64,000 nt of DNA, from positions 2,604,001-2,668,000 of the forward strand of contig NZ_CP139976.1 of NCBI RefSeq assembly GCF_034424625.1, in the 5' to 3' direction. The notes below the pieces were generated by a model that saw nothing but the letters and a program-made list of their open reading frames with translations, searched no databases and was not told the origin of the DNA. Position numbers and translations under genes: made by a program. The DNA is from Janthinobacterium lividum. Its GTDB lineage: Bacteria > Pseudomonadota > Gammaproteobacteria > Burkholderiales > Burkholderiaceae_D. Of this stretch, positions 24,529-35,274 are shown piece by piece (the first letter of the stretch is position 1; each line of letters begins with the position of its first letter).

Positions 24529-25194
24529 ATGACCAAAACCGTCCCAGCGAAAAAAGCCGACAGCGCGCCCGTATCGATGTTCCCTACCAGCGCCTCGATC
24601 AATGCGGCTGCGGCCAAGGCGGCACCGGCTGCTAAACCAGCTGCGAAAGCAGCCGTCAAGCCAGTGGCAAAAGCCGCCGTCAAGCCGGCGGCAGCCAAGC
24701 CAGCGGCGGTCAAGCCAGCCGTGGCCAAGGCGCCAGCCGCCAAACCGGCAGCGAAGGCCGCCGTTGCCAAGCCTGCGGCCAAAGCCGTCGTCAAAGCCGC
24801 CGTCAAACCGGCAGCCAAGCCAGCCGTGAAAGCTGTCGCCAAGCCTGCGGTGAAGACCGTCGCCAAGCCGGCCGCGAAAGCCGCCGCCAAACCGGTAGCC
24901 AAGGCGGCCGCCAAGCCTGCGCCAGCGAAAAAAGCGCCGGTCGCCAAAGTCGCCGCCGTCAAGGAAAAAGCCCGCAAGCCGAAACTGGTGCGCGACAGCT
25001 TCACCATGCCGGAAGCGGAATACGAAGTCCTGGGCCAGGTGAAGAAAGCCTGCCTGAAGGCCGGTTTCGAGATCAAGAAAAGCGAATTGCTGCGCATCGG
25101 CGTGGCGCTGATCAGCCAGATCGACCTGGCCACCCTGCAAAACGTGCTGGCCGGCTTGCCGCAGCTGAAAACGGGCCGTCCGAAGAAGGATTGA
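24529..25194 (+). CDS. Histone H1-like Ala/Lys/Pro-rich protein with C-terminal DNA-binding-like domain
   Basis: A 221-residue protein. Residues about 25-145 consist almost only of A, K, P and V in degenerate repeats of the AKPAAKAAVKP type, like eukaryotic H1 tails and the bacterial H1-like proteins of Ralstonia and Bordetella. The last 70 residues are an ordinary globular domain (KLVRDSFTMPEAEYEVLGQV, IKKSELLRIGVALI) that looks like a ribbon-helix-helix-type or related dimer. It probably binds DNA and condenses the nucleoid. An AT-rich stretch upstream (24478-24525) with TATATT-like hexamers is the likely promoter. It starts 93 bp after ppx. Confidence 0.83.
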   Translation: MTKTVPAKKADSAPVSMFPTSASINAAAAKAAPAAKPAAKAAVKPVAKAAVKPAAAKPAAVKPAVAKAPAAKPAAKAAVAKPAAKAVVKAAVKPAAKPAVKAVAKPAVKTVAKPAAKAAAKPVAKAAAKPAPAKKAPVAKVAAVKEKARKPKLVRDSFTMPEAEYEVLGQVKKACLKAGFEIKKSELLRIGVALISQIDLATLQNVLAGLPQLKTGRPKKD

Positions 25195-28536: not shown

Positions 28537-29298
28537 ATGCAGAACATAATCGCATCAAACGAAGCCAAGGCCCGGCCGGTCCAACTGGTGCTGAGCCAGG
28601 CCACGACAGCGGCGGAAGTGCGCGAAGTCCAGCGTTTGCGCTACAAGGTGTTTATCGAAACCATGGGATTGAGTTCGCTGGCCAATGCCGATGGCCTCGA
28701 CAGCGATGAATTCGACGCGCACTGCGACCACCTGATCGTGCGCGACGCCGATACCCTGAAAGTGGTGGGCACCTACCGCGTGCTGAGCGCGGCCAAGGCG
28801 GCCAAGATCGGCCGGCTGTATTCGGAAAACGAGTTCGACCTGAGCCGCCTGAAGAACCTGCGCGGACGCATGGTCGAAGCGGGCCGCGCCTGCATCCACC
28901 CGAAATACCGGGGCGGCAGCGTGATCATGCTGCTGTGGTCGGGTCTGGCCGAATACATGCGACGCGAGCGCTGCGACTACCTGGTCGGCTGCGCCAGCAT
29001 CAGCCTGGCCGATGGCGGCCATAACGCCGTCGCCGTGTACCAGGCGCTGGCCGAAAAGCACATGGCCCCAAGCGAGTACCGCGTCACGCCGCACCTGCCT
29101 TTCCCCATCCACCAGGTGGAAGCGGCGCACAAACCGCAGGTGCCGCCGCTGATCAAGGGCTACCTGCGTTCGGGCGCCTGGATTTGCGGCGAACCGGCCT
29201 GGGACCCTGATTTCGAAAGCGCCGACATGTTCATGATGATGCCGCTGGCGAATCTGGACGAGCGCTATGCGCGCCATTATGGCGTGGTGCCTGGCTAA
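28537..29298 (+). CDS. olsB: OlsB-type N-acyltransferase (ornithine-lipid synthesis; GNAT fold)
   Basis: A 253-residue protein of the Acetyltransf_5/autoinducer-synthase-like fold. Motifs include AAEVREVQRLRYKVFIETMG, HLIVRDADTLKVVGTYRVL, YSENEFDLSRL, EAGRACIHPKYRGGSVIMLLW and DYLVGCASISL. OlsB transfers a 3-hydroxyacyl chain from acyl-ACP to ornithine to give lyso-ornithine lipid, which OlsA then acylates; no OlsA is in the window. The tandem PhoB boxes upstream agree with the known induction of ornithine lipids by phosphate starvation. GGGGGA precedes the ATG. Its last 68 bases overlap the 3' end of the convergent CHAT gene. Confidence 0.82.
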   Translation: MQNIIASNEAKARPVQLVLSQATTAAEVREVQRLRYKVFIETMGLSSLANADGLDSDEFDAHCDHLIVRDADTLKVVGTYRVLSAAKAAKIGRLYSENEFDLSRLKNLRGRMVEAGRACIHPKYRGGSVIMLLWSGLAEYMRRERCDYLVGCASISLADGGHNAVAVYQALAEKHMAPSEYRVTPHLPFPIHQVEAAHKPQVPPLIKGYLRSGAWICGEPAWDPDFESADMFMMMPLANLDERYARHYGVVPG

Positions 29299-32200
29299 GG
29301 GCGGGAAGCGAGGACTGCAGCTGGCTGGCCAGCGCCTGCACGGCGCTGCGCAAGCCGGTGTCCGCGCTGTCGGGCGGCAGCAGTTCGAGCAGGAAGCGCA
29401 GCGGCGCCGTGATCGCTTCGGGTTCGCCGATGCTGCCGTGGCGCCGCACGGCGTCGTGATATAGCGCCATGAAGGCGGCGCGCGCGGGCGCGTCGAAAGG
29501 CTGGCCGTCCGGCACCTGCCACAGGGCCGCCAGCAGGGCGGCGCGCACGGGGGCGCCGGCATCGATGGCGCGGTGTTCGTCCGCGTGGCGCTGGCGCGCA
29601 TAGGCGATGGCGTCGTGCAGCAAGTCGCCCAGCTGCGGATCGAGCGCGCGCCAGGCGCTGTCGTCGGCATGGGCTTTCAGCAGCAGGGCGCCCGCCAGCA
29701 CCTGGAAAATGAGGTCGCAGTCGGCCACGCCGCTGCGCCGCCGTGCTTCTTCCAGCGCGGCCAGGCAGGCATCCGTCATGTCGCGCAGGGCCGGCGCGCC
29801 GGAGCTTCCTGCGCCGCAGGCCAGGCGCGCCTGCAAGGCCCAGTAGCGTCCCAGCAGCGCCAGGCGCTGCGCCGTGGGCGCCAGCGCCACCAGCAGGTCG
29901 ATATGCTGTTTTCCGTCCTGCAGCAACTGCCGGCCCTGTGGCATATCAGGCACGGCAGGCACTTCGATGCCGGCGCCCGCATCGAGGCCGCACAGGGCGG
30001 CGCCCTGGCGTATCTCCAGTTCCGCCCAGTGCGCCAGCGCGCGCAAGCCCACCTTGCCGTCGGCCGCGCTGTGCGCCGCCCGGTAGTGTTCGATGGCGCG
30101 CAGGGTGTTTTCCAGGCCACCGAGGCCGGCCCGCGTGGCGGCCATGTTTTCGCGGATGTCGGCGCAACCGAAGAAGCGCGCGCGCACGGCTTCCTCGATG
30201 CTGCCCAGCTTTTCCTCGATGGCCGCGCGGCGCGCAGGATCGGCGCCCGCCAGGCGCGCGTGCAGGGTTTCCAGGTCGGCCAGCAGGTGGCCGTGGTAGT
30301 GGTAGTCAGGCGCTTGCCAGGGCCGGCTCTGGGTGTTCGGAAAGCGGTAGCGGTCGTCGCCATACGCCTGGTAGGCGCCCCAGGTGTTCGAGGCCGGGAA
30401 CTGCAGGTACGCCGCTTCTCGCGCCAGGCGCACGGCGTCGCCGAAGTATTCGCCGCTCAGCATGGCGTGATAAAAGCTGTGCGCGAAGATGCTGGCCGCC
30501 TGGTCGTCGATGCGCCAGCCGGCAGCGATCACCGCCTGCGAGCCCATTTCAATGAAGGCCGTGGCCAGGCTGGCGGCCAGTTTCGACCATGGCGCGATGG
30601 CGTCGGGGCGCATGTCGCCCAGGTGGCAGCAATTGATGAAGACGAATTGCGGCACGCGCTTCAATTTACCTACCTGCGCCGCCGTCAGGCGGGTCTTCGG
30701 CCCCAGCACCAGCCCTGTATGGGCGATGCCGGGGCCGGCCACTTCGCCGTGGCCGGCCAGGTGAATGGCGAAATAGCGCTCATCGAACAGATGCACCAGC
30801 ACGCGCTGCGCCTGCGGGCGCAGCAGCTCGCGCACCTGGTAGCCGTACGCGCCGAACATGCGCGCCACGTCCTGCGCCTCGGCCTGCGCGGCGGGCAGCT
30901 CGGGCAGGCCGGAATCGGTATCGCCGATCACCAGCACGCTGTTGCTGGGCGGGCTGACGGCGGACGGCTGCTCGCGCAGGCTGGCCAGCTGGCGCACCAT
31001 GCCGATGCGCGTCGACAGCGGGCTTTCCTCGCTGCCCGCCTCGTCGCGCATCAGCTCCCACGGATAGATGGCGGCGCTCTGGTCGACGGCCAGGATCAGG
31101 CCGCGCATCTCGGGGATGGCCGCCTTCAGGCCATTGGGCAGCATCAGTTCGTACAGGGCGCGCGACAGGCCCGGCTGGTCGGTGGTGTTGTCGGTGGCGT
31201 CCATGATCAGGCCATCGACGGCTTGCCGCTGGTTCGGTTCCTCGTCGACGCTGTTGTGGGCGCGGTCCGTCAGCACGGTGAAGCGCAGGGCGCCGGAGAG
31301 ATCCGCGGCGACGATCTGCACGCGGCGCCAGCCATTGTCGCCGCTCAGGCTGGGCAGGATGCGCCTGTAGCCGCCCGGGCTGTGGCGGATGCGCTGTTCG
31401 AAGGTGAAGCTGCCCTGGTAGCGCGCCTCGGCCATGATCTGCTCGATGGCCATGGCGGCGGCGATGGCGCGCGCCTCCGACTGTTCGTAGATGGCGATGT
31501 GGCCGATGCGGCAAGCCATGCCCGCGTCTTCCAGGCGCCGGTTGGCGCTGCGCGCGCCGTCGAGCAGGGCGCGGGCGCACAGGGCGATGCTCAAGCCGCC
31601 ATAGCCGGAGCCGGACAGCAGGCTGGCCACGCGCAAGCCGTGTTCGCCCATCGGCGGCGCGGCTACATGGCCGGCTGCGCGCACCTGCAGGCAGACGCAC
31701 GCGTATTCGAGCAGGCCGCCGGCAAAGGCGCGCGCCAGTTCGCCCGGCGTCAGCTCGCCCAGCGCGCCCAGGCCGATGACGATGGCGCCGCCGGGCCGGC
31801 GCGCCGCATCGGGCTGCAGCACCACCAGGGCGGAGTCGGGGCGCTGCGGAAAGCGCCCCAGCGCGTGGATTTCCTGCAGCTTGCCGGCCAGCAGGCGGTC
31901 CAGGAAGCTCATGCTGCCGCGCAGCGATTCGGACGCGTAGCAGCCGCTCATGACGGGTGCGTCGGCCGAGGCCATGCTGCCGTGGATGACGGATAGGCTC
32001 AGCTGTGGCGCGCGGCTCTCCGGTGCGCTGGCGGGGCCGGCGGCGCCGATGGCCGCGTCGAGCAATTCCTGCGGCTGCGGGTACAGCGGCGTAGCATCGG
32101 GCACATACGGATGGAAGCGGGGCGGGACGCCGCCAGGCGCGTGCGGCGGGTGCCGCGGCAGGGAGGTCCCCTGGCCGCTGTCGAGCAGTTGCGTGATGGC

Positions 32201-34696
32201 CGGGTAGTAGTCCTTTTGCAGCAGCAGGTCGCCATGCGCCACCGGCAGGTAGCAGGCCGCTACGCCGTCCGGCACCGCGCCTTGCCAGGCCGTGCGGCCA
32301 TCGCCGTCCGGCGACCAGGCGGTCTCGATGCCGCCGTCGCGCAGGCGCAGCGCCACTGGCGTGTCGGCGCAGCCGGCCAGGTAGCTGCAATGGCGGGCGT
32401 CGAGCGGGGCCGCTTGCAGCAGGGCCACGGTGGCGCGCGCCGCGGCCAGCGCTGGCGCCTCGGGCGCCTGCCAGCCGCCGGGCAGGCCCGCTTGCCCATC
32501 GCCGGCGGCCAGCTGGGCCCAGGCGGCGGCGTCGAAATAATCGATGCCGCTCCCCGCCTGGGGCCACGGCAGCATTTCCAGCACGCCGGGAAAGGCGCGC
32601 ACGAAGCCGAGAAACTGGCGCCGCGTGTGCTTCCAGCCTATCCAGCACGCCAGCATCTGCACCAGCCGGTCGCGTCCCAGCAGCACTTGCACCATCGCCT
32701 GCGTGCCACGGTTGGCCGTGCCCACCTGCAGCAGGCGGCTGCCGGGCAGGGCGCCGAAGCGCTGCCAGCGGTCTTTCAGGGCCAGGCGCGCCACCAGCCC
32801 GCCCATGCCGTGGGCCACGATGCGCAGCGGCTGGCCGCGCTGTTCGGCGTCGCCCATGGCCTCGTCGAGCACGGGCAGGAAGGCGCTGCCGGAATGCTGC
32901 AGCGAGAGGCGCCAGTCATAGGCAAAGGGCCGCACTTCCTGGCTTTGCGCGAGGAAGCGGGCAAACGGTTCATAGCAGGATTCGATCCAGCCGGCGCTGA
33001 CGATGTGCGGCTGGCCCACGGCCAGGCGTTCGATGCGCCCTTCGACCAGGTTGACGGGGTCGAACCAGATGCGGTTGCTGCCCACTTGCAGGTGGCTGCC
33101 CAGCATGTCGGGCAGCAGCAGCACGATGGGCGCGTGCGCGCGCCGTTTCGGCACTTCGCCGCCGCGCCCCAGCGCGCCATGTTCCAGGCCGGCCAGCGGC
33201 TGGTAGCCGGTTTCGTCGCCCGTGAGCGCCTGCACGGTGGCCAGGCTGGACGGCGCGCGCTCGAAGTAGTTCAGGTGGTGCGTCTGCGGCCCGCGCAGCA
33301 GCAGTTGCCGCACCGGCGTGCTGCGCGTGGCGCCGCCGGCCATCGAGGCGCAATTGACCACCAGGTCGTTCTGCCCGCCGTACAGCTGTTCGCCCAGGCA
33401 GTCGCCCAGCCAGCCCAGCAAGCCATCGCCGCTGCAGGCGCCGGCCAGCACATACAGCGGGCTGGCCACGCGCACGTCGGGCGCGTTGAGCAGCGCCACC
33501 AGGGGCGAGTCGGGCATCATCGCTTCCAGGCCAGGCAGGATGCGCGCGTCGCAGCGCTGCTGCACCACGGCCAGCAGGAATGCCACGGCGCCATCGGGAG
33601 CGTCGTCCTGCAGCAGCAGGTTGAACATCACGCTGGCCCAGCGGTCCAGCCGGCCCGACATCAAGGTGGTGCCGCGCGCCGGGCAGGCCACGCGCACGAA
33701 GCGGGCGATGCGGATGGCGCGTTTCTTCAGTTCCACGCTCAGTTCGCGCAGGCGCGCCGCATCCTCGTCGTAGCCGCCGCGGCCGCCCAGCCGTGCCTGC
33801 GCCGTGAAGTGGTCGATATCGTGGCTGTTGAACGCTTCGCCACCCACCGTGTTTTCGCTCAGCCGCTCCAGGCCGTCGCCGGCCAGGTCGACGGCGCCGC
33901 GGCTGTCGATGCGCTGCGCCCGCGCCAGCAACTCGCCCACCAGGCCGCCGCGCGAATGGGCCAGCAGGTGCAGCACGGCGCCGTGCGGCAACTGGCGCAC
34001 GAGGGCCAGCGCATTCTGGATGGGGCTGTCGCTGAGGCTGCGGTGCTCAAAGCCATAGATGCGGTTGCCGTACTGCGCCGCCAGTTGCGGCGCCAGGCCG
34101 TTGCGCCACAGGCCGCCAAAGCTGCGCTGGGTCGACGAGGCCGTGCCGTGCAACAGCAGCAGCACAGGTTCCGGTCCGGCGGGCAGGCTGGCGACGGCCG
34201 TCATGTTGCCGGCCTCGATGCCGCAGCGGTACAGACCCAGGCGCTGTTCCAGCTGGCGGTCCTGGAAGGCGCCCGCCGCCGCCAGCGCCGTCATGGCGGC
34301 GGCGCCGCAGCGGTACACGCGCACGGCCCGCAGCATCCAGGCGCCCAGGCCGTCGCGGCTGGCGCCGGGCGGCTGGCGCGCCGCCTGCGGACGCAAGGCC
34401 AGCCCCACTTCGATGCTGGCGGGCGCGCCGTCGCGCGCTGCCGTGGCCGGTCCCAGGTAGCGTGGCAGGTCCAGGCTGCCCGCCAGCAGCGAACTGCCGT
34501 CGCACAGCAGCAGTTGCACCACGTCGGACGGGCCGATATCGAGGGCGATGCGGCAGCTGCCGATGCCGCGCGCGCTGGATAGCACATGGGTCTGGCCATG
34601 CCAGCCGGGCGCGGCGGGGCAGTCGCCGGCATTGGCGAGGGGATCGCGCGTGAGCGTCAGGCGCAGCACGGGCGGCGCAAGAGGGGCGCTGGACAT
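29231..34696 (-). CDS. Giant protein: two alpha/beta-hydrolase domains fused to a CHAT caspase-like protease
   Basis: 1821 residues, no signal peptide. Residues 170-480 form an alpha/beta hydrolase with LLLLHGTASST (oxyanion His183-Gly184), nucleophile elbow AHSRGG (Ser248), NDLVVN (Asp444) and THHLNYF (His473/474): an apparently intact triad. Residues 520-850 form a second, PGAP1/LCAT-like hydrolase (IVLLLPDMLGSHLQ), but its elbow reads AHGMGG, with Gly630 in place of serine. Residues about 890-1150 resemble a macro/aminopeptidase-N-like fold (AIVIGLGALGELTPGELARA). The CHAT domain (about 1170-1445) keeps its His in HLAGHGE (1316) and Cys in INCCHLGD (1357). The remaining 370 residues are helical. 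No ribosome site is evident. It overlaps olsB by 68 bp at the 3' end. Function unknown; a protease-gated lipase or cell-death effector is inference. Confidence 0.9.
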   Translation of the reverse strand: MSSAPLAPPVLRLTLTRDPLANAGDCPAAPGWHGQTHVLSSARGIGSCRIALDIGPSDVVQLLLCDGSSLLAGSLDLPRYLGPATAARDGAPASIEVGLALRPQAARQPPGASRDGLGAWMLRAVRVYRCGAAAMTALAAAGAFQDRQLEQRLGLYRCGIEAGNMTAVASLPAGPEPVLLLLHGTASSTQRSFGGLWRNGLAPQLAAQYGNRIYGFEHRSLSDSPIQNALALVRQLPHGAVLHLLAHSRGGLVGELLARAQRIDSRGAVDLAGDGLERLSENTVGGEAFNSHDIDHFTAQARLGGRGGYDEDAARLRELSVELKKRAIRIARFVRVACPARGTTLMSGRLDRWASVMFNLLLQDDAPDGAVAFLLAVVQQRCDARILPGLEAMMPDSPLVALLNAPDVRVASPLYVLAGACSGDGLLGWLGDCLGEQLYGGQNDLVVNCASMAGGATRSTPVRQLLLRGPQTHHLNYFERAPSSLATVQALTGDETGYQPLAGLEHGALGRGGEVPKRRAHAPIVLLLPDMLGSHLQVGSNRIWFDPVNLVEGRIERLAVGQPHIVSAGWIESCYEPFARFLAQSQEVRPFAYDWRLSLQHSGSAFLPVLDEAMGDAEQRGQPLRIVAHGMGGLVARLALKDRWQRFGALPGSRLLQVGTANRGTQAMVQVLLGRDRLVQMLACWIGWKHTRRQFLGFVRAFPGVLEMLPWPQAGSGIDYFDAAAWAQLAAGDGQAGLPGGWQAPEAPALAAARATVALLQAAPLDARHCSYLAGCADTPVALRLRDGGIETAWSPDGDGRTAWQGAVPDGVAACYLPVAHGDLLLQKDYYPAITQLLDSGQGTSLPRHPPHAPGGVPPRFHPYVPDATPLYPQPQELLDAAIGAAGPASAPESRAPQLSLSVIHGSMASADAPVMSGCYASESLRGSMSFLDRLLAGKLQEIHALGRFPQRPDSALVVLQPDAARRPGGAIVIGLGALGELTPGELARAFAGGLLEYACVCLQVRAAGHVAAPPMGEHGLRVASLLSGSGYGGLSIALCARALLDGARSANRRLEDAGMACRIGHIAIYEQSEARAIAAAMAIEQIMAEARYQGSFTFEQRIRHSPGGYRRILPSLSGDNGWRRVQIVAADLSGALRFTVLTDRAHNSVDEEPNQRQAVDGLIMDATDNTTDQPGLSRALYELMLPNGLKAAIPEMRGLILAVDQSAAIYPWELMRDEAGSEESPLSTRIGMVRQLASLREQPSAVSPPSNSVLVIGDTDSGLPELPAAQAEAQDVARMFGAYGYQVRELLRPQAQRVLVHLFDERYFAIHLAGHGEVAGPGIAHTGLVLGPKTRLTAAQVGKLKRVPQFVFINCCHLGDMRPDAIAPWSKLAASLATAFIEMGSQAVIAAGWRIDDQAASIFAHSFYHAMLSGEYFGDAVRLAREAAYLQFPASNTWGAYQAYGDDRYRFPNTQSRPWQAPDYHYHGHLLADLETLHARLAGADPARRAAIEEKLGSIEEAVRARFFGCADIRENMAATRAGLGGLENTLRAIEHYRAAHSAADGKVGLRALAHWAELEIRQGAALCGLDAGAGIEVPAVPDMPQGRQLLQDGKQHIDLLVALAPTAQRLALLGRYWALQARLACGAGSSGAPALRDMTDACLAALEEARRRSGVADCDLIFQVLAGALLLKAHADDSAWRALDPQLGDLLHDAIAYARQRHADEHRAIDAGAPVRAALLAALWQVPDGQPFDAPARAAFMALYHDAVRRHGSIGEPEAITAPLRFLLELLPPDSADTGLRSAVQALASQLQSSLPALSQAPRHNGAHSARPDSPAASS

Positions 34697-34986: not shown

Positions 34987-35274
34987 TCAATGGACTGGCG
35001 TGGCGGACAGTTCCTTCAGTTCGCGGATGGTGATGTCCGATTTTTCATGCATGCGCAATAAAATCGTTGCACCGACCGACAGTTTGCCGTGACGAATCTT
35101 GCTGATGATGGGGGGCTGGACTTCCAGTACACGGCACAGTTCCGCATCATTTTTCAGGTTCATCTTCTCGATCAGGGTATCGAGCAGCTTGTTGGGCACA
35201 AAACTCGATGGTTCGAGCGCACGCGCCCGGTTCATCGCCTCAATCATTTCCAGCTTCTTTTGCCGAACGTTCAT
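34987..35274 (-). CDS. Small XRE-like helix-turn-helix protein
   Basis: A 95-residue protein with a lambda-repressor-like HTH at about residues 25-85: LLDTLIEKMNLKNDAELCRVLEVQPPIISKIRHGKLSVGATILLRMHEKSDITI. The helix-turn-helix reads NDAELCRVLEVQPPIISKIR. It resembles small phage- or plasmid-type repressors common in Oxalobacteraceae. AGGAGG lies just upstream of the ATG. It is on the same strand as, and 290 bp upstream of, the CHAT gene, so it may regulate it. Tandem TACAACATT repeats lie about 95-117 bp upstream. Confidence 0.8.
   Translation of the reverse strand: MNVRQKKLEMIEAMNRARALEPSSFVPNKLLDTLIEKMNLKNDAELCRVLEVQPPIISKIRHGKLSVGATILLRMHEKSDITIRELKELSATPVH

Follow-up and report, generated by a model that had tools for sequence, protein, structure and literature searches.

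Within a 64,000-nucleotide stretch of Janthinobacterium lividum contig NZ_CP139976.1 (positions 2,604,001 to 2,668,000 of the forward strand; hereafter, the window), the gene at 29231..34696 on the minus strand encodes an 1821-residue protein in which two hydrolase regions, a macro fold, a CHAT caspase-like protease and a C-terminal helical array are joined in one chain. We regard the protein as a fused and orphaned version of an already known type of conflict system. Tentatively, we read the gene as an orphan effector-plus-sensor whose family comprises conflict systems that combine a nucleotide signal with caspase and lipase and probably serve self-killing defence; possibly, this effector-sensor is self-contained.

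The open reading frame (ORF) is real and intact, with a single full-length match in its own genome, and a protein search that scored 7,996 candidates returned at least 762 homologues (E<=1e-3), from which it follows that the fusion is a recurrent architecture. A first-pass annotation, made from the letters of the window, had described the protein as a single fusion of 1821 residues with two hydrolases, a macro-like region and a CHAT protease, a description that holds in part; the protein is real and interesting, the sensor and the second hydrolase were misjudged, and the family was invisible to that annotation. Outside the genus the family is sparse: in a class-wide profile search (E<=0.001), 30 of 274 genomes matched, and more than 1,400 positions were covered in five of these, the genome of the window included. 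In the accessible parts of the literature around the combination of TPR-S, CHAT and hydrolase, no paper was recognised as describing this architecture, and the term DUF7379, the family of the first hydrolase, did not occur in the literature searched. The gene, its parts and the genes at the two edges of the site are as follows.

29231..34696, minus strand: gene of the 1821-residue fusion protein, stop codon included (from the ORF list; most of the length is co-linear among homologues)
34247..34696, minus strand: N-terminal beta-rich region, residues 1-150, without a Pfam match; residues 1-21 of low confidence
33197..34246, minus strand: esterase-like hydrolase 1 (DUF7379), residues ~151-500, strand and helix order of an alpha/beta-hydrolase, putative triad Ser248/Asp444/His474
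33953..33955, minus strand: codon of Ser248, predicted nucleophile of hydrolase 1
33365..33367, minus strand: codon of Asp444, hydrolase 1 triad
33275..33277, minus strand: codon of His474, hydrolase 1 triad
32147..33154, minus strand: hydrolase 2, residues ~515-850, phospholipase fold of the LPLA2/LCAT/Tle4 type
32807..32809, minus strand: codon of Gly630, at the place of the hydrolase 2 nucleophile; Asp799 and His821 are kept
31433..32011, minus strand: macro fold, like the N-domain of leucyl aminopeptidase, residues ~896-1088
30335..31348, minus strand: CHAT caspase-like protease, residues ~1117-1454
30749..30751, minus strand: codon of His1316, CHAT dyad
30626..30628, minus strand: codon of Cys1357, CHAT dyad
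29306..30298, minus strand: all-helical TPR-S-like array with the fold of the ASK1 central region, residues ~1467-1797
34987..35274, minus strand: upstream gene of a 95-residue helix-turn-helix (HTH) protein at one edge of the site (weak match to HTH_37)
28537..29298, plus strand: convergent gene of an OlsB-like GNAT acyltransferase at the other edge (OlsB models match below their cut-offs)

Residues were counted in four sets, which overlap and are not additive: 106 distant relatives (P0015-P0120, taken from the best 120 of the 762 homologues, with 43-51% identity over 81-99% of the query), the 13 closest relatives (>=63% identity), 21 full-length copies from the genus and 51 other full-length loci. 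The CHAT protease (PF12770) is matched by the window protein with 97.8 bits at a curated cut-off of 24, and its His1316/Cys1357 dyad, already pointed out in the first-pass annotation, is present in all 106 distant relatives and in 24 of 24 genus copies, including three copies cut by contig ends. The ratio of non-synonymous to synonymous substitution rates (dN/dS), estimated by a simple counting method for 10 pairs of genus copies, was 0.15-0.45 for the whole protein, 0.00-0.18 for the CHAT part, 0.21-0.53 for hydrolase 1 and 0.14-0.48 for hydrolase 2, with the CHAT part being the lowest in all 10 pairs. By these ratios, selection acts on whole copies. The fusion protein has its fixed core in the protease, for which proteolysis is predicted from the dyad residues.

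For hydrolase 1, the residues of a predicted Ser-Asp-His triad are present and conserved: among the distant relatives, Ser248 is found in 105 of 106 (one gap), and Asp444 and His474 in 106 each. The histidine, previously placed at 473 or 474, is assigned to 474; residue 473 is His in 40 of the 106. Position 248 is Ser in 12 of the 13 closest relatives (Gly in one), in 20 of the 21 genus copies (Gly in one) and in 50 of the 51 other loci (Cys in one). Two relatives, P0015 and P0074, match Abhydrolase_6 at this region, the latter above the Pfam cut-off. The suggested structural check bore out the CHAT and hydrolase 2 folds; for hydrolase 1, the strand and helix order agrees with an alpha/beta-hydrolase fold, while the fold-search lists for the N-terminal half were filled by hydrolase 2. 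As judged from conservation, hydrolase 1 is mostly kept.

Hydrolase 2 has the fold of an LPLA2/LCAT-type lipase according to the fold search. To count two hydrolases had been an overstatement: the window protein lacks the serine nucleophile here and carries Gly630 instead. Of the 106 distant relatives, 105 have Ser at this position and one has Cys; among the 13 closest, Gly (nine) prevails over Ser (three) and Ala (one), and the 21 genus copies have Gly in 19, Ser in one and Ala in one. At the 51 other loci it is Ser in 47 and Gly in four, and Asp799 and His821 are retained in all 51. Judging by the residue states, catalysis by hydrolase 2 was probably lost more than once. A plasmid protein annotated as a trypsin-like peptidase (NZ_CP042263.1, 164596-165519) resembles the hydrolase 2 region, which suggests that this lipase pairs with other proteases too.

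The same counts bear on a first alternative, namely that the protein by now works mainly as a regulated CHAT protease acting on some substrate, both hydrolases being scaffold or on the way to becoming so. It would account for the low dN/dS and the complete dyad of the CHAT part, for the loss of the nucleophile in hydrolase 2 (20 of 21 full-length genus copies and four of 51 other loci) and occasionally in hydrolase 1 (one of 21 and one of 51), and for a short form in another genus of the same taxonomic family, a 700-residue protein (L139:5324-7423) that carries the macro and CHAT parts alone. However, Ser248, Asp444 and His474 are almost invariant across the relatives examined, and the dN/dS of hydrolase 1 within the genus signals that constraint persists; we consider this alternative somewhat unlikely.

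The macro-like region was correctly recognised early on, residues ~896-1088 having a macro fold. A stand-alone 211-residue protein resembling the macro fold and the M17 N-domain (L130:4765-5400) is encoded in G013, a genome without the fusion at the usual site; such stand-alone hits occur in G011 and G013, and inspection by eye of the ORFs listed for the latter showed no caspase. The claim that the protein is devoid of TPR sensor repeats does not stand. Its C-terminal array has a helical fold like the central region of ASK1 (the fold-search lists for the C-terminal half consist mostly of CHAT and macro rows), and the co-linear arrays of P0015, P0025 and P0074 pass the cut-off of TPR-S (PF20308), with P0072 just below and P0008 without a match. 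No TPR-S match was obtained at E 0.1 for the window protein, nor for any other protein of its genome. An NCBIfam scan of the fusion protein and a PADLOC run on P0025 gave no match, and a strongly hydrophobic stretch of the signal or membrane helix type is absent from the fusion protein, whose 19-residue mean peaks at 1.61 (residue 1655).

The neighbourhoods of relatives point to a conflict role. From 217 confirmed candidates, the best 74 loci were taken, of which 63 (seven from Janthinobacterium and 56 others) entered the neighbour study; L033, L034, L035, L037, L040, L043 and L044 (Janthinobacterium) and L055, L064, L069 and L076 (short contigs) were left out. Full-length ORFs were obtained from 58 of the 63 loci, the Janthinobacterium residue counts being taken from the genus copies instead, and four of the 56 loci have less than 1 kb of upstream sequence. 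Since greedy ORF calling hid some metacaspases behind antisense ORFs, neighbours were counted by profile searches of six-frame pieces; the profiles for metacaspase, TIR-like and TIR genes were built from the same loci, and the counts stand without a random-locus control and uncorrected for kinship. Three kinds of partner recur at the 56 loci: (i) 29 have a metacaspase gene no more than 1.3 kb away, in 26 cases upstream and on the same strand, and one additional locus has one elsewhere in the 10 kb flanks; (ii) a TIR-like/TPR-S gene lies within 10 kb at 15; (iii) a TIR domain is encoded within 10 kb at 16. At 39 of the 56, at least one of the three is found within 5 kb.

The metacaspase and CHAT genes often form an operon-like pair: of 19 pairs measured, 18 have gaps of 3-128 bases and the remaining one overlaps by 103. 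In 21 aligned metacaspases the catalytic dyad is complete apart from one gap (His 20, Cys 21). Both metacaspases scanned match Peptidase_C14; a further domain scan took in 10 neighbours chosen by eye, among them genes at L050, L059 and L060. The scanned TIR-like/TPR-S partners carry, after an N-terminal TIR-like region, TPR-S in nine of nine and MAP3K_TRAF_bd in eight of nine. An ELG-type Glu, which we take to be the catalytic one, is invariant in nine aligned members. The cassette at L059 (3473-15394) is compact and runs from TIR-like/TPR-S through patatin-TIR and metacaspase to the CHAT fusion; a patatin phospholipase-TIR fusion beside a caspase is noteworthy in itself. At L060 (5871-8066), a protein with TIR and SLOG-cluster2 is encoded upstream of the CHAT-fusion relative, and the downstream ORF of L050 (16482-20498) combines a ParA/AAA_31-like ATPase, many TPRs and an FtsZ/tubulin GTPase with FtsZ_C.

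In a later check, 11 further loci were chosen before their neighbours were known, except for the metacaspase of G097, with partial hits (for example G262 and G295) excluded and L142 set aside as an apparent repeat of L079. Within the stretch fetched, hits to metacaspase and/or TIR came from four of the 10 new loci (L135, L136, L138 and L141); of these, L135, a distant homologue inside the same genus, adjoins a TIR gene. The search for proteins of the same architecture and for their neighbours, proposed in the first-pass annotation, led to a large family in which the recurrent neighbours identified are of the caspase and TIR type.

Within Janthinobacterium the gene occupies one site and has been deleted repeatedly. 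It is carried by 24 of 40 genomes of the genus, that of the window included (21 whole and three cut by contig ends), and among G000-G024 all 12 whole copies sit between the HTH and OlsB-like marker genes. The gene is absent, with the markers 178-453 bases apart, from nine genomes (G001, G003, G005, G008, G009, G011, G012, G013 and G018), and G015 has pieces of it only. Remnants of the gene ends were detected by blastn in G005, G008, G015, G018 and G036, in at least four breakpoint patterns; at six other sites tested in this way no gene piece was found beyond the OlsB overlap, so that older loss and ancestral absence look alike there. Frequent loss despite selection would be expected for costly defence genes and also for dispensable ones. 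The draft assemblies of G023, G028 and G039 (L022-L024) break inside the gene, at residues ~754-856; the G+C content of the gene peaks near these breaks (73% at 32001-33000), and the breaks are probably an assembly effect.

The copy in the window is an orphan. A profile search of the window gave neither a metacaspase nor a TIR-like/TPR-S hit. Its genome encodes one CHAT protein, one distant TIR protein (TIR_2) and three other caspase-domain proteins, of which one does not match the partner metacaspase profile and the other two score low against it (27.5 and 16.6 bits), as compared with ~300 bits for partners; lacking a strong partner match, the copy is thus orphaned locally and, as far as the models show, genome-wide. 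The small HTH gene noted early on is indeed present upstream but is not a dedicated partner: as a candidate antitoxin it was rejected, because it stays where the CHAT gene is absent and belongs to a multi-copy family, with seven further matches in the same genome and similar sets in others of the genus. Elsewhere in the window (24529-25194) lies a gene for a 221-residue protein that is rich in Ala, Lys and Pro, contains KPAAKAA-like repeats and, by eye, resembles histone H1.

Alternatively, the fusion protein may work with chromosomal partners encoded elsewhere, as the operon versions do with adjacent ones. The single TIR_2 protein or one of the three distant caspases would be the candidates, yet the poor scores of these caspases against the partner model and the missing TPR-S match in the genome make such an arrangement quite unlikely. 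A housekeeping role in lipid metabolism, for instance in remodelling linked to the neighbouring OlsB-like ornithine-lipid acyltransferase, might be suggested by the two genes, which adjoin across the genus and overlap by 68 bases at their 3' ends; it is very improbable, given that OlsB and HTH persist in ten genomes of G001-G024 that lack the CHAT gene or hold only fragments of it, and that caspase and TIR-type genes are the recurrent neighbours identified for relatives elsewhere. That the protein is an antibacterial lipase effector exported by type VI secretion, of the Tle4 kind, is hardly credible, as the nucleophile of the Tle4-like domain is gone and no strongly hydrophobic signal or membrane stretch exists; no search aimed at secretion genes was made.

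The preferred reading, an orphaned conflict effector with its own sensor, could operate in the following manner, judging from the functions of its modules: The TPR-S array, perhaps together with the macro fold, would read a signal linked to infection or stress, probably an NAD-derived nucleotide. Sensing of the signal may turn on the CHAT protease, which would free or activate hydrolase 1 of the same chain; the latter may then attack membrane lipids, whereby the cell is stopped or killed. In the wider family, a separate caspase presumably joins the cascade, a step that in Janthinobacterium may have been lost or may be carried out within the one protein, with hydrolase 2 as a putative dead, lipid-binding scaffold. 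The fullest version of this scheme, in which two caspase-class proteases (metacaspase and CHAT) act in a two-step cascade that is gated by an ASK1-like TPR-S receptor of a TIR-made nucleotide and ends in lipase release, and in which Janthinobacterium has condensed the sensor, the protease and the lipase into a single suicide protein that needs no partner and in which the second lipase is a dead scaffold, seems unlikely; if true, bacteria would have, in one protein, a counterpart of the chain of sensor, caspase and membrane attack in pyroptosis.

Several observations weigh against the preferred reading. None of the seven Janthinobacterium loci has any partner within 10 kb; inspected by eye, the window shows only ordinary-looking neighbours, although no defence scan was made of it; and the genome is without a Pfam TPR-S match. 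Partners of all three kinds are missing within 10 kb at 17 of the 56 other loci, and six of the 10 loci of the later check show none in the stretch fetched, a lower rate of partners than in the first set. The loss of Ser248 in one of 21 full-length genus copies suggests that lipase activity may not be essential, and repeated loss of the gene also fits a merely dispensable gene. No relative was found in the phage records and viral contigs searched, and plasmid matches comprise 19 records, five of them over >=80% of the query. The early idea of a lipase-protease conflict protein is, nevertheless, supported by the metacaspase, TIR-like/TPR-S and TIR neighbours of relatives, and it fits the repeated deletion in the genus; that of a self-contained system suits the Janthinobacterium branch, which lacks such neighbours, but does not suit the family at large, in which partner genes occur commonly. 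Overall, what the first-pass annotation observed is partly confirmed and its interpretation partly supported. Should the reading be right, a large, little-described family would constitute an immune effector in which an ASK1-core-like sensor, a separase/Craspase-like protease and lipases that attack membranes share one chain. Membrane lysis driven by caspases would then have a bacterial parallel open to testing, and the genus, where the gene at its one site is intact in some genomes and lost or broken in others, would offer a natural experiment.

Among known systems, those built on TPR-S share with this family the co-linear C-terminal TPR-S of relatives, the TIR-like/TPR-S partner genes and the similarity to ASK1 (MAP3K); TPR-S reportedly was predicted by Burroughs and Aravind, in J Bact in 2020, to read NAD-derived signals. 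In contrast to these systems, the Janthinobacterium copy has lost the TPR-S sequence match and has no TIR-like partner nearby, and the operon form with metacaspase and TIR-like/TPR-S genes beside the CHAT gene, as seen in relatives, occurs at none of the seven Janthinobacterium loci. In Craspase, the TPR-CHAT protein Csx29 of type III-E CRISPR has its array before the CHAT domain and binds Cas7-11, whereas the array of the window protein lies after CHAT and lipase folds are fused to it. Borvo also has a CHAT protein (BovA), the PADLOC match being weak (18.1 bits) and confined to residues 1271-1427 of the CHAT core; we know of no fused hydrolases in Borvo. In type IV Thoeris, a protease triggers or executes a toxic step in phage defence. 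Hydrolase 2 shares its fold with lysosomal PLA2, LCAT and Tle4, with Gly in the window protein for the nucleophile. A review table places CHAT proteases in Craspase and Borvo and assigns PF12770 to BovA. Proteolytic unlocking of toxic enzymes is described for canu and Hachiman; in the caspase-nuclease system canu, too, a protease triggers or executes a toxic step in phage defence, but the effector is a nuclease encoded by a separate gene. Published work further attributes NAD-derived signals to TIR/DrHyd enzymes, and a protein that joins a metacaspase with a lipase and an amidase was described in 2012. A parallel in enzyme classes is found in Kaur et al. 2020 (PMC7159879), in which the caspase domain of VMAP systems always neighbours an alpha/beta-hydrolase gene; the same two classes come together here, but hydrolases, macro fold, CHAT and sensor reside in one chain.

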